Shown here one piece after another: positions 2,630 to 9,973 of a DNA stretch of 64,000 nt. Location: assembly GCA_018266355.1 (NCBI GenBank), contig JAFEAP010000027.1, positions 1 through 64,000 on the forward strand. The letters are read 5' to 3'. Below the pieces are notes generated by a model, which saw nothing but the letters and a program-made list of their open reading frames with translations, did no database searches and had not been told where the DNA came from. Within the stretch, counting starts at the first letter, position 1. The number at the start of each line of letters is the position of its first letter. The position numbers and the translations under genes are program-made. Origin of the DNA: Bdellovibrionales bacterium. Lineage in GTDB: Bacteria; Bdellovibrionota; UBA1018.

Positions 2630-3580
2630 CTAAAATCGAACTCCACCCGCGATCGATCCGGCGAAGTCGCTGTTCCCAATCTTGATCGATTCGGTCGAAT
2701 AGTTGAAGTAGTCCATGAGGAAAGACGCCTTCAGGAATCCGTGTCCGCCGTTCAGCCCGAACGAAACCCGGAAGTGACCGTTGAACTGGCCGGTATTCCG
2801 CGCCTCGTTCGTCGCGATCAGATCGTAGGCGAGGTGATTGATGCCGAAGGTGAGTCCGAAGAACGCGGAGGCGAAAACCGCGGCGGGCCCGTCCCAAAGG
2901 ACGCCGTATCCGCCCCCGACGCCGACGTTCGTCGTCTTCGCGCCCTTGATCGATCCGTCGCTGCCGAAGGTCGCGACCTTTTCCGCCGGGATCAAACCGG
3001 CGTCGTTCCGGAAATACTGGTGGCGGATCGAAGTGAGCAGCATGAACGAACCGGCGGTGGTGTTCTGGGGCTCGCTCTGGTCGAACGCCGCGGGCATCGA
3101 GTACCCTTTCGGGCTCAGCACGTAAAAGAAGTTCAATCCGTAACCCGTGGACTGCATCTCCGGCAGGCGATAGTACTGCGCGCCGTTCAAGGTCGCCGCC
3201 GAAAGCCGACTGCTGTTCTCGATGAGGTACCCGGTATAGTGATTGTAGCCGAGTTCGATTCCCCAATTCCGAACGTAGTAGGTGACCATCGTCGAAGTGT
3301 ACTTACTCTGACCTTCTTGGTCGCGGATCTCGCGGCTCGCGGGGACGGCGAAGGCGAGCGTGCCGGCGAGCCACCGGTATCCGAGGATCACGCCGGCGTA
3401 ATTCGACTGCGAAGGCCGGAAGGTGAGCTTCTCGCTCTCCGCGATCTTCGGGGAGAGGTCGATTCCGAGCGAGTCGGCTTCGAAGCTGAGTCCGATTTTC
3501 CACGGGCGATAGCCGCCTTCGGCCGCGCGGGCCGCCGGGATAAATCCGAATGCGAGGAGAAACAGGGCGAGGAGTCGCAT
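2630..3580 (-). CDS. DUF4421-like outer-membrane barrel protein
   Basis: This encodes 316 residues with a clean signal peptide (residues 1-19, ending AARAAEGG). Next come alternating strands rich in aromatic residues and glycine, ending in GGVRF; a C-terminal phenylalanine is the usual outer-membrane beta-barrel signature. Segments such as YYVRNWGIELGYNHYTGYL and the LDYFNYS-type C-terminal strand resemble the DUF4421 family, whose function is unknown. It probably sits in the outer membrane. Family assignment is by recollection of pattern only. Confidence 0.65.
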   Translation of the reverse strand: MRLLALFLLAFGFIPAARAAEGGYRPWKIGLSFEADSLGIDLSPKIAESEKLTFRPSQSNYAGVILGYRWLAGTLAFAVPASREIRDQEGQSKYTSTMVTYYVRNWGIELGYNHYTGYLIENSSRLSAATLNGAQYYRLPEMQSTGYGLNFFYVLSPKGYSMPAAFDQSEPQNTTAGSFMLLTSIRHQYFRNDAGLIPAEKVATFGSDGSIKGAKTTNVGVGGGYGVLWDGPAAVFASAFFGLTFGINHLAYDLIATNEARNTGQFNGHFRVSFGLNGGHGFLKASFLMDYFNYSTESIKIGNSDFAGSIAGGVRF

Positions 3581-7027: not shown

Positions 7028-7684
7028 GTGCTTCATTCCGCGCTCCATGGTTGGCTCGTCACCTGGTTCGCGTGGGTCGAGCATTGGGGATACGCGGGCG
7101 TTTTCTTCCTGATGGCGATGGAAAGTTCGATCTTTCCGGTGCCGTCCGAAATCGTGATGGCGCCGGCCGCGTTCTGGGCCGCGCAGGGAAAAATGGATTT
7201 CTGGGGCGTGGTCGTCGTCGGCACGCTCGGTAGCTACTTCGGCTCGCTCGCGACCTATCTCGTTTCGCGCAGCCTCGGCCTCCCCATGATCCATCACCTG
7301 AGTAAGCGCTACGGAAAGCTGCTCTTCCTCTCCGGCGAGAAACTCCGCCAGGGCGAAGCGTGGGTCGAAAGACACGGCATCGTCGGGATCTTCGTCGCAC
7401 GCCTTCTCCCCGTCATTCGCCACCTGATCGGAATTCCGGCGGGCGTGTTCCGAATGCCGCTCGGACCTTTCTCGGCGGCGACGCTCGTCGGTGCCGGGCT
7501 CTGGTGCTTCGTGCTCTCTTGGTTCGGCCGCGAGGTCATCGGGAATTCCCCCGAGCTCCTTCAGTCGCCCGAGCAGCTCATCGCCGTGATGAAGGCGAAA
7601 GTGATCTGGATCGTCGCCGGCGTCGCGGTATTCGGGGCACTTTACGGAATCATGGCTTGGATGCGGAAATCCCCAGTTTCGTGA
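7028..7684 (+). CDS. DedA family membrane protein (SNARE-associated/VTT domain)
   Basis: This encodes 218 residues starting with GTG, 3 nt after tatA. Four to five hydrophobic segments are present. Family signatures are the glutamate-containing MESSIFPVPSE near residue 31 and the re-entrant-loop motif FVARLLPVIRHLIGIPAG near residue 121. DedA proteins support envelope integrity, and some recycle undecaprenyl phosphate or flip phospholipids. Loss of DedA proteins is known to affect Tat export, which makes the tatA neighbour meaningful. The last 35 nt overlap the convergent glycosyltransferase gene. Confidence 0.9.
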   Translation: MLHSALHGWLVTWFAWVEHWGYAGVFFLMAMESSIFPVPSEIVMAPAAFWAAQGKMDFWGVVVVGTLGSYFGSLATYLVSRSLGLPMIHHLSKRYGKLLFLSGEKLRQGEAWVERHGIVGIFVARLLPVIRHLIGIPAGVFRMPLGPFSAATLVGAGLWCFVLSWFGREVIGNSPELLQSPEQLIAVMKAKVIWIVAGVAVFGALYGIMAWMRKSPVS

Positions 7685-8864
7685 AGATCGAGTCCATCGC
7701 CGATCCCGATTGGGCCCAGTCGTAGCGGGATTGGACCATGCGGCGCCCGTTCTCCGAGAGCGAAGCGCGAAAGCCCGGTTCGCGAGCGATTCGCAGAACG
7801 AGCGACGCGAACTCGTCCGGCTTTTCGGCGATGCAGACGTCGACGAGCGGTTTCAGGAAGAGCCCGTCCGCGCCGCGGCCGGTGGTGACGACCGGCACTC
7901 CGGCCGCCATCGACTCGAGGATGTGGATGCGGTTCCCGCGCCCGTACCGAAGCGGAAAGACGGTTGCCACCGAATCGCGGAGTTGGTCGACGAGTTCTTC
8001 GTTCCGGGAGTAGGCCCTGAAATCGAACTGCGGGAATTTCTCGGCCAGGCCTTCCATCCCGCGCGCTTGGCTGTGGATTTGGATGATGGGCTTCTCGTTT
8101 TTCAGCGCGCTCGAAAGCCGCGGAAGGAGTTCGTCGCGGATCCATTCGACGGCGTGAAGGTTCGGCTGGTAGTCGAGGTCGCCGATGAAGGAGAGACGGA
8201 GGCTGCCGAGCGCCTTCGTGCGATTCGGATCGGAGGCGCCGAGGTAGTTCTTCGTATCGATCGCGAAAGGAACGACCTGGCACTTCGAGTCCGGCGCGAG
8301 TTTTTCCATCCGGGAGGCGTCGATCGGAGAAGCGGTGACGACGAGGTCGGCGGTGGTGCTGAGTTTCTTTTCGTAGAACGCGCACTGCGCGGCGGTCACG
8401 CCCTGGGGCCAATAGCGCATTTTCGTGAAAGCATTGTCGAGGAGCAGGTCGCTCTCGACTTGGTGCTCGTCGAGGATCGAAAAGCACCCGAGCTTTCGCG
8501 CGAGCCCCATGTACTTTCCCATGCGGAGGCGCGAGAGCCAAACGAGGTCGCCCGGCTTCGCGCGCGACTTCAAGGTCGACTCGATCGAATGCGAGTAGCC
8601 CTTCGCGAAATGGGGGCGAACGACGTCGAGCGGGAAAGTGAAGAGGTTCATCCCGTCGAGGGGATGGCAGGAGACGCTGACGTTCGCGCCGAATTGCGCC
8701 TCGGCCGCGGCTTGGATCGCGGGCGTATCGGTTTGGTCCGAGATGCAGAGCACTTCGACGGGCAACCGCTGCGCGAGCAGCGAAATGATCTGGGCGTCGC
8801 GGATACGGCGGGCGCCCACGACGGGCACCGGTCGACCGCTCGTAAGGAAGAAAGCTTTCCTCAT
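7650..8864 (-). CDS. GT4-type glycosyltransferase
   Basis: This encodes 404 residues from the ATG at 8864 (an in-frame TTG precedes it by one codon). The C-terminal half has the GT-B nucleotide-sugar fold: SFIGDLDYQPN at the domain start, and later FPLRYGRGNRIHILESMAAGVPVVTT, the usual E-x7-E type donor-binding region. The N-terminal part resembles the acceptor domain of sugar transferases that act on envelope polysaccharides. It is a lone gene facing dedA with a 35-nt tail-to-tail overlap, so the acceptor cannot be inferred. Confidence 0.85.
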   Translation of the reverse strand: MRKAFFLTSGRPVPVVGARRIRDAQIISLLAQRLPVEVLCISDQTDTPAIQAAAEAQFGANVSVSCHPLDGMNLFTFPLDVVRPHFAKGYSHSIESTLKSRAKPGDLVWLSRLRMGKYMGLARKLGCFSILDEHQVESDLLLDNAFTKMRYWPQGVTAAQCAFYEKKLSTTADLVVTASPIDASRMEKLAPDSKCQVVPFAIDTKNYLGASDPNRTKALGSLRLSFIGDLDYQPNLHAVEWIRDELLPRLSSALKNEKPIIQIHSQARGMEGLAEKFPQFDFRAYSRNEELVDQLRDSVATVFPLRYGRGNRIHILESMAAGVPVVTTGRGADGLFLKPLVDVCIAEKPDEFASLVLRIAREPGFRASLSENGRRMVQSRYDWAQSGSAMDSIFTKLGISASKP

Positions 8865-8901
8865 CAAATGAGTTTAGCGCCAACTTCGGGTCGGGCGCCA
8901 G

Positions 8902-9069
8902 TGTGCGGTGGGGAATACCCCGACGGCGGATCCCGGGCTAAGCCCCGCCAAAAGCCTCAGACAAACCCCCGATCGGCCTGCGGGCCGACGGGGGCAACTC
9001 GTTTTTGGCGGGGCTTAGCCCGGGATCCGCCTTCAGGTAATTCCCACGGCGGTGGCCGAAACTCCGCAC
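8902..9069. repeat. Nested fold-back element A (layered inverted repeats)
   Basis: The arms at 8925-8953 and 9003-9031 are perfectly complementary over 29 bp. Inside is a second stem (8966-8978 with 8983-8994, one bulged A). Between the two stems are unpaired segments CTCAGACA (8956-8963) and CAACTCG (8995-9001). Weaker outer layers extend the structure: GGGAAT 8911-8916 with ATTCCC 9040-9045, and GTGCGG 8903-8908 with CCGCAC 9064-9069. It lies between the transaldolase stop and the glycosyltransferase start. The 365-bp gap 8865-9229 holds this and element B and no gene. Confidence 0.8.
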
Positions 9070-9118
9070 TAGACGCGATTGAAGCGTTCGGAGGATTTCA
9101 AAACGCATCGAGGAGCGC

Positions 9119-9226
9119 GGTGGGGTGGGGGTGCCTTGGCGAGCGCGAAAAACGAGTTGCCCCCGGCGCAGCCGGGGGGGTGTCTGAGTTTTTTCGCGCT
9201 CGCCAAGGCGCCCTCGCCCGACCACC
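9119..9226. repeat. Nested fold-back element B (same core as A, opposite orientation)
   Basis: The outer arms 9133-9152 and 9190-9209 are perfectly complementary over 20 bp. The inner stem is 9160-9167 with 9171-9178 around GCA. Extra pairing GGTGG/CCACC lies at 9119-9123/9222-9226. The unpaired segments ACGAGTTG (9152-9159) and TGTCTGAG (9181-9188) are the reverse complements of the ones in element A, so B is the same element type, inverted. The outer-stem sequence is unrelated to that of A. It starts 4 nt after the transaldolase stop, so it may also act as its 3' end. Confidence 0.8.
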
Positions 9227-9229
9227 GAC

Positions 9230-9973
9230 CTAGAGCTTGAATCCCGCCGCCTCGGAGTCCTTCTTGAAGGTCTGGACGGTGTCGAGGCTCAGCGCTTCGG
9301 CGGTCTTCCCGAAACCGGAGTGGAGTTTCTTGATGATGTCGGCCGGCGCGGTGATGATGTGGCAGCCCATCTGCTCGGCTTGGACGATATTGTACACTTC
9401 GCGCGTGGAGGCCCAGAGGAGCTCGACGTCCGGACCGGCTGCGCGGCAGAGTTCGAGCGACGCTTTCATAAGCGGCATCGGATCGACGCCCGTATCGGCG
9501 AGGCGTCCCGCGAAAACCGAGACGAAAGCCGGCGCGCCGCCCTTCACGGCGTCGCAGGTGCCTTTCACTTGGTCGACGGTGAAGAGGGCGGTGATGTTCA
9601 GCTTCACTCCCGAGTGGGAAAGTTCCTTCACGAGCGGCAGGCAGGATTCGCCCTTCGAGTTCGTGATCGGGATTTTCACGTACACATTCTTTCCCCAAGT
9701 CTTGATCTCGAGGGCCTGACGGCGCATTTCCGCGATCTCGTCGGCGAAGACCTCGAAGGAAATCGGTTTTTCGGTGACGTGGGTGAGGATCTCTTTGCAG
9801 TAGCCGCGGTAATCGGTTACCCCGGCCTTCCGCATGAGCGACGGGTTCGTCGTCATGCCGGCGATCTTCGGGTTTCCGTTCATCTCGAGAAGGGACGCCC
9901 GGTCGGCGCCGTCGGAGAAGATCTTGATCTTGCTTTGAAAGGTGTACGGGGACTGGACAGGCGACGAATTCAT
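9230..9973 (-). CDS. Transaldolase family protein
   Basis: This encodes 247 residues from the ATG at 9973; longer in-frame starts exist but run into the promoter region. IFSDGAD at 18-24, MTTNPSLMRKAG at 40-51 and NVYVKIPIT at 96-104 mark the single-domain TIM-barrel transaldolase/fructose-6-phosphate aldolase family. Lys100 is the expected Schiff-base residue. STREVYNI near 190 and HIITAPADIIKKL near 210 match the C-terminal phosphate-binding blocks. It either exchanges dihydroxyacetone units in the pentose phosphate pathway or acts as an aldolase. The length is between the TalC/Fsa and TalB classes. Confidence 0.87.
   Translation of the reverse strand: MNSSPVQSPYTFQSKIKIFSDGADRASLLEMNGNPKIAGMTTNPSLMRKAGVTDYRGYCKEILTHVTEKPISFEVFADEIAEMRRQALEIKTWGKNVYVKIPITNSKGESCLPLVKELSHSGVKLNITALFTVDQVKGTCDAVKGGAPAFVSVFAGRLADTGVDPMPLMKASLELCRAAGPDVELLWASTREVYNIVQAEQMGCHIITAPADIIKKLHSGFGKTAEALSLDTVQTFKKDSEAAGFKL

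Follow-up and report, generated by a model that had tools for sequence, protein, structure and literature searches.

The window, i.e. the whole 64-kb stretch of DNA analysed here, contains a transaldolase gene (9230-9973, minus strand; TIGR02134 above cut-off, PF00923) and downstream of it a glycosyltransferase group 1 gene (7650-8864, minus strand; PF13692 above cut-off). Between these genes lies a putatively inserted unit of about 342 bp (8888-9229), which comprises an inverted pair of hairpins termed elements A and B. As stated in the preliminary description, both are nested fold-backs that are inverted relative to each other and have outer stems that are perfect over 29 and 20 bp.

Element A (8911-9045) has its CGAG strand on the minus strand. 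Read on this strand, a 5' arm (9003-9045) is followed by loop strand 1 (CGAGTTG, 8995-9001), an inner G/C hairpin (8966-8994), loop strand 2 (TGTCTGAG, 8956-8963) and a 3' arm (8911-8953) that is the partner of the 5' arm, in the register arm-A/CGAG...TGAG-GC/arm' (slashes mark the arm borders). The perfect stem of 29 bp (8925-8953 with 9003-9031) holds as described, but beyond a short internal mismatch the pairing extends as far as 8911/9045. The arms measure 43 nt with 39 Watson-Crick pairs (91% complementary), and a weak GTGCGG/CCGCAC pairing follows further out. Element B (9119-9223) has its CGAG strand on the plus strand, and only 6 bp separate its end from the stop codon of the transaldolase gene. 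Its arms (9119-9152 and 9190-9223) are 34 nt long with four mismatches, have 30 Watson-Crick pairs and 3 G.T pairs, and include the perfect stem of 20 bp (9133-9152 with 9190-9209). They enclose loop strand 1 (CGAGTTG, 9153-9159), an inner G/C hairpin (9160-9178) and loop strand 2 (TGTCTGAG, 9181-9188), all on the plus strand. A and B are separated by a spacer (9046-9118), which was not found to resemble the corresponding spacer in the second unit described below.

The loop strands ACGAGTTG and TGTCTGAG match exactly between A on the minus strand and B on the plus strand. The outer stems of A and B are indeed unrelated, with the exception of an AAAA/TTTT step adjoining the junction. From shuffled sequences, 0.02 occurrences of the two-part loop pattern would be expected, and the 64-kb window has two. 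In RNA folding, z-scores of -11.6 (A) and -8.6 (B) were obtained and none of 200 shuffles equalled either fold. No further nested fold-back with similarly long arms was detected in the window. The 10-mer GGTCGGTGGT (9221-9230, minus strand), situated where the unit borders on the transaldolase gene, also opens the second unit (C5:102523-102532). As a general end mark it was rejected, since it has 16 copies in the genome, mostly in coding sequence, and is weak evidence only.

Copies across the phylum and a second core type

The loop pattern retrieved another inverted pair from the same genome, consisting of elements C and D (contig C5:102,552-102,790). They share the loops of A and B but not the arms, and lie in a unit of about 318 bp between two convergent genes. 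Loop strand 1 is CGAGTTG in A, B and D and CGAGCTG in C. No others were found in the 3.9 Mb of this genome, which thus holds four copies of this core type, F1, in two inverted pairs. A covariance model built from A, B, C and D was used to search related genomes and the phylum. In 57 related genomes, ranging from the genus to the class, it gave no convincing match, and the two weak ones (E 0.006 and 0.06) both lacked the loops. The search of the phylum revealed copies in 11 other genomes from three families. The best E-value outside the genus was 4.6e-8, and several of these genomes contain more than one copy. Twenty additional copies were inspected and showed the same architecture as A to D.

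The resulting comparison set of 24 F1 copies confirmed that the loops are fixed and the arms are free. Loop strand 1 reads ACGAGTT (20 copies), GCGAGTT (3) or ACGAGCT (1), and loop strand 2 is TGTCTGAG in 17 copies and TGTTTGAG in seven. Mean pairwise identity was 0.95 in the loops versus 0.30 at arm positions 5-20, and at the same positions pairing with the own partner reached 0.967 as compared to 0.328 with a swapped partner. A lack of further copies, or loops as variable as the stems, had been named as grounds for abandoning the first reading. Both are contradicted by the additional copies with their conserved loops, and the structure is therefore real. We conclude that A and B are members of a previously unlisted family that is scattered across the phylum and is probably mobile.

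The exact-core pattern gave only chance matches in coding sequence among 85k genomes and viral contigs, blastn found no match in plasmids and a single 24-base chance match in a phage gene, and a loose pattern produced scattered matches across the class with the fold present in the own genome alone. Rfam yielded nothing at the gathering threshold for the whole window, and no family reached its cut-off with F1. Weak miRNA-like matches on the elements were discarded because any long hairpin yields them. Variants were observed as well: at L198:1475-1800 and L208 (G299) a complete F1 has one or two incomplete copies of its right half in tandem behind it. At L199 and L202 (G248 and G247), a second, similar pair of unpaired strands of the TTCTGGGTTTATCGAGGG/CCGAGCTTGAATTGG type lies farther out in the stem, which suggests that this genus has a further conserved internal loop.

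When long inverted repeats were surveyed over about 2.4 Mb of the own genome, a second nested family, F2, was revealed. Three copies were found, two of which form an inverted pair; a fourth adjoins a tRNA-Thr gene and one more is present in a same-genus genome, adding up to five. The own-genome copies are the inverted pair at L140:2864-2997 and 3089-3225 (C26) and those at L074:4475-4592 (C2) and L194 near 1462-1600 (C15); the same-genus copy is L190:1460-1600 (G001). The family has a fixed core of its own, and in the four own-genome copies the arms are perfect over 31-40 bp. The core is unrelated to that of F1, yet the junction is identical, arm/CGAG...YGAG/N/arm'. F2 uses the register arm/CGAG...CGAG/C/arm', and F1 either arm/CGAG...TGAG/N/arm' or the register given above for element A. 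When 2.68 Mb were scanned for arm/CGAG...YGAG/arm', only F1, F2 and one chance match were retrieved, and four scrambled control tetranucleotides gave 0 or 1 match. Judged from the sequence, tandem G.A pairs next to a small bulge are possible where CGAG and YGAG face each other.

Repeats of the opposite design also occur, with conserved inverted arms (TAGCCATTTGTGCGCTTYGG) and variable loops of 49-85 nt. At least five copies are present (L086:4782-4904, L121:3187-3291, L121:19787-19893, L125:16879-17005 and L176:16306-16431, with a variant at L177:5759-5862), and they are possibly REPIN- or MITE-like. A further inverted repeat at L138:15624-15782, with 34 perfect bp and a 91-nt loop, has no CGAG junction.

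Probable insertion sites and folding strand, and upkeep of the arms

Both F1 units are absent from the orthologous sites of the same-genus genomes G001 and G002. There, the gap between the transaldolase and glycosyltransferase genes is 27 bp or the genes abut, and the genes bordering C/D overlap, or come close to it, at the stop codons. One edge of the A/B site retains the flank GAAGTTsGCGCTArACTCA (G001), and at the opposite edge the stop codon is preserved. The two units may be insertions here or losses there. As both relatives agree, insertion is the simpler explanation and is favoured for A/B as well as for C/D. The C/D unit is bordered on both sides by GCTTAG, a 6 bp candidate target-site duplication; over all loci, flanking repeats were no longer than random.

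Inverted pairs are formed by A/B, C/D, the F2 pair (F2a/F2b), L197 and L207. Many copies are located near gene 3' ends, some of them 0-20 bp from a stop codon or tRNA end, and the orientation of the CGAG strand relative to the nearest gene 3' end is mixed. Moreover, an inverted F1 pair with a distance of 1.4 kb (L196, G302:C24) brackets the genes for mobile mystery proteins A and B, of which TIGR02613 scored above and TIGR02612 just below the cut-off.

Fixed loops with fully compensated stems had been taken as the mark of a structure conserved in RNA or single-stranded DNA. The nested structure is conserved with exactly these features, but perfect compensation is in itself no proof of selection on RNA or single-stranded DNA, since template switching in the course of replication can also generate perfectly matched arms and homogenise them (PMC8794818, PMC8604942). 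That one strand folds is better supported by the uneven distribution of mismatches between the strands. The CGAG strand shows 19 G.T versus 5 A.C internal mismatches (one-sided p = 0.003) in 29 arms with 1,084 Watson-Crick pairs, a set in which the copies are partly non-independent and a few mismatches stem from the weak outer extension of D. Neutral transitions should produce G.T and A.C in equal numbers. The excess of G.T therefore indicates that the CGAG strand, as RNA or as single-stranded DNA, is probably the one that folds. The overall wobble fraction in the arms is about 2%.

In related copies within a genus (L198/L208 and L199/L202) the arms can be aligned yet have diverged, which shows that they change fast and jointly. 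Searched against about 2.4 Mb of the genome, the arms gave short chance matches only. The final 8 nt of a tRNA-Arg gene are part of one arm of L195, and an inverted copy of them lies on the far side. Since the end of the tRNA is constrained, the tRNA side most likely served as the source, and the pattern points to templated copying. The longest F1 arms, 101 and 78 bp at L203 and L210 (G295), extend into contig ends and may in part be assembly fold-backs or genuine giant palindromes.

Comparison with known elements

REPs have been described as inverted dimers that adjoin convergent 3' ends and carry an unpaired tag (PMC3733652). REP/REPIN elements (BIME), which are mobilised by RAYT (TnpA_REP) Y1 transposases, resemble F1 as dispersed extragenic hairpins in inverted dimers with one strand recognised. 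They occur close to convergent 3' ends, frequently no more than 20 bp from both genes, and have a short unpaired foot tag (PMC3733652, PMC6006769). Intergenic inverted dimers near convergent 3' ends were likewise found for F1, several of them at most 20 bp from stop codons. Unlike in REPs, the F1 tag CGAG has a conserved 3' partner, YGAG, and is situated within a long outer helix of 20-45 bp. The REPs known so far have short stems and lack long outer arms, and their families usually comprise many copies. The low copy number of F1, four in 3.9 Mb, counts against a REP-like nature. Membership in the GTAG/CGTC super-families was rejected on account of the tag, the long arms and the transposase. 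CGAG opposite YGAG was found where a GTAG/GTGG or CGTC tag at one foot of a short hairpin is expected, no cognate Y1 was found in the window genome, and none of 30 Y1 loci sampled elsewhere was flanked by the element. In REPs the transposase also processes the tagged strand as single-stranded DNA, a point on which the mismatch bias of the CGAG strand bears only indirectly.

Long or double-palindromic repeats, sometimes repeated in the genome, are also a feature of TIRtrons and of the atypical secondary structures of TnpA_Y1 subclass 2.6 and class 3 (PMC3733652, PMC6006769), and the CnGA foot of the latter fits CTGA within TGTCTGAG. Those structures, compared here by description only, are linked to Y1 proteins, whereas F1 has no adjacent Y1 gene. 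MITEs and other small palindromic elements are, like F1, small, non-autonomous, intergenic and missing from orthologous sites, and empty orthologous sites were observed for both F1 units (G001 and G002). In Correia, RPE and YPAL elements the terminal repeats are conserved; F1 is built in reverse, with variable arms around a fixed interior. An assignment to DNA-transposon MITEs failed because conserved terminal inverted repeats are lacking (the arms are 30% identical) and a target-site duplication is not general. Integron attC sites, k-turns and self-cleaving ribozymes were set aside since conserved bases or geometry do not fit their descriptions.

Among the RNA families, TwoAYGGAY (RF01731) resembles F2, which aligns with it over the full length on the CGAG strand and shares a poorly conserved long external stem and tandem GA (PMC4333381). 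Four of the five F2 copies scored 28.7, 29.4, 31.1 and 42.0 bits against this family, with a cut-off of 43; for F2a there was no match among those listed. The window elements A and B gave no match to it. F2 differs in having one AUGGAU loop and one CCGGAG-type loop instead of two AYGGAY loops, and F1 has neither. Membership was therefore rejected, as the scores remain below the 43-bit gathering cut-off and the layout with two AYGGAY loops is missing. TwoAYGGAY itself was judged to be probably RNA and was proposed to act as a CsrA sponge (PMC2864571, PMC4333381).

Interpretation

The preliminary description left open whether A and B are an RNA, a protein-bound DNA hairpin or a REP/MITE-like element. 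The insertion pattern, the inverted dimers, the location at 3' ends and the mobile cargo favour REP-like mobile DNA, with RNA as the main rival. Our tentative preference is that A and B are dispersed, non-autonomous and probably mobile palindromic elements of the REP/REPIN type in an inverted-dimer arrangement, with a new junction and with arms kept by template switching. The recognised part would be a junction on one strand, which leads from the outer arm through CGAG, the inner hairpin, TGTYTGAG and one or two unpaired bases into the partner arm. The folding strand would be single-stranded DNA exposed in replication or repair. The junction may be bound by a single-strand nuclease-recombinase, the best candidate being a Y1/HUH protein supplied in trans. 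Template switching across the hairpin, and not selection base by base, may keep the long arms perfect. No Y1_Tnp gene (PF01797) was found in the window genome (G000) or in G001, and Y1 genes are present in all 11 other positive genomes. However, none of 30 Y1 loci retrieved from positive genomes had a long inverted repeat or F1 within about 1.5 kb, and a RAYT/REPtron-like adjacency was thus not observed in this sample.

A structured RNA transcribed from the CGAG strand, either a small RNA or a 3'-UTR element in which the junction binds a protein and the long stem does no more than stabilise the fold, is possible, though we consider it less probable than the REP-like reading. The wobble bias on the CGAG strand is consistent with it, as are the matches of four of the five F2 copies, which share the junction, to TwoAYGGAY on this strand, albeit below the cut-off. 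Besides, when RNA energies are used, most of the 24 F1 copies give a better fold for the CGAG strand than for the complementary one. On the other hand, an RNA with arms of 20-45 bp and so few wobble pairs (about 2%) would be unusual, the orientation of the CGAG strand to the neighbouring gene is not fixed, and F1 has no AYGGAY loop and matches no Rfam family at its cut-off.

A bolder reading, to which we give little credence, assumes a superfamily that is defined by the junction and has varied cores (F1 and F2) and cargo. Movement or processing through a single-stranded hairpin would copy local sequence into both arms, which would be rewritten at or near each new site with the junction kept intact.

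Ordinary bidirectional intrinsic terminators or 3'-end stabilisers, with a core shared by chance or local duplication, are an unlikely explanation. In their favour are the many copies situated at gene 3' ends, in some cases 0-20 bp from a stop codon or the end of a tRNA, and the T runs that come after the inner stem on both strands. Nevertheless, several conserved loop nucleotides separate the stem from the T run, and the loop strands are about 95% identical over three families of the phylum. Plain long-stem terminators of the same genome have loops of 3-4 nt and lack the CGAG...YGAG junction. Furthermore, orientation is mixed and the relatives do without the element between the same genes.

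It is more doubtful still that the hairpins are purely mutational palindromes produced by template switching, neither element nor function, with the core as an inert ancestral repeat. The perfect arms and the arm that enters the tRNA gene fit template switching (PMC8794818), but the fixed loops, the junction shared by two cores, the strand bias and the absence from orthologous sites would be left unexplained. Fold-back artefacts of assembly or amplification are hardly conceivable: although the two longest arms (L203 and L210) extend into contig ends, the loops are conserved across unrelated assemblies, and copies within long contigs and in the single-contig, near-complete genomes G231 (L197 and L207) and G232 (L201) refute such an origin for the family.

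If the REP-like reading is true, the phylum has its own REP-like elements, which would be recognised via an internal tandem-G.A junction and not via a foot tag. The shared junction would moreover tie the proposed RNA family TwoAYGGAY to apparently mobile DNA and reopen the question of whether it is RNA or DNA. The 29 hairpins are, finally, a natural record of template switching, in which stems are rewritten and remain near-perfect, and they offer a test of compensation without selection on each pair.
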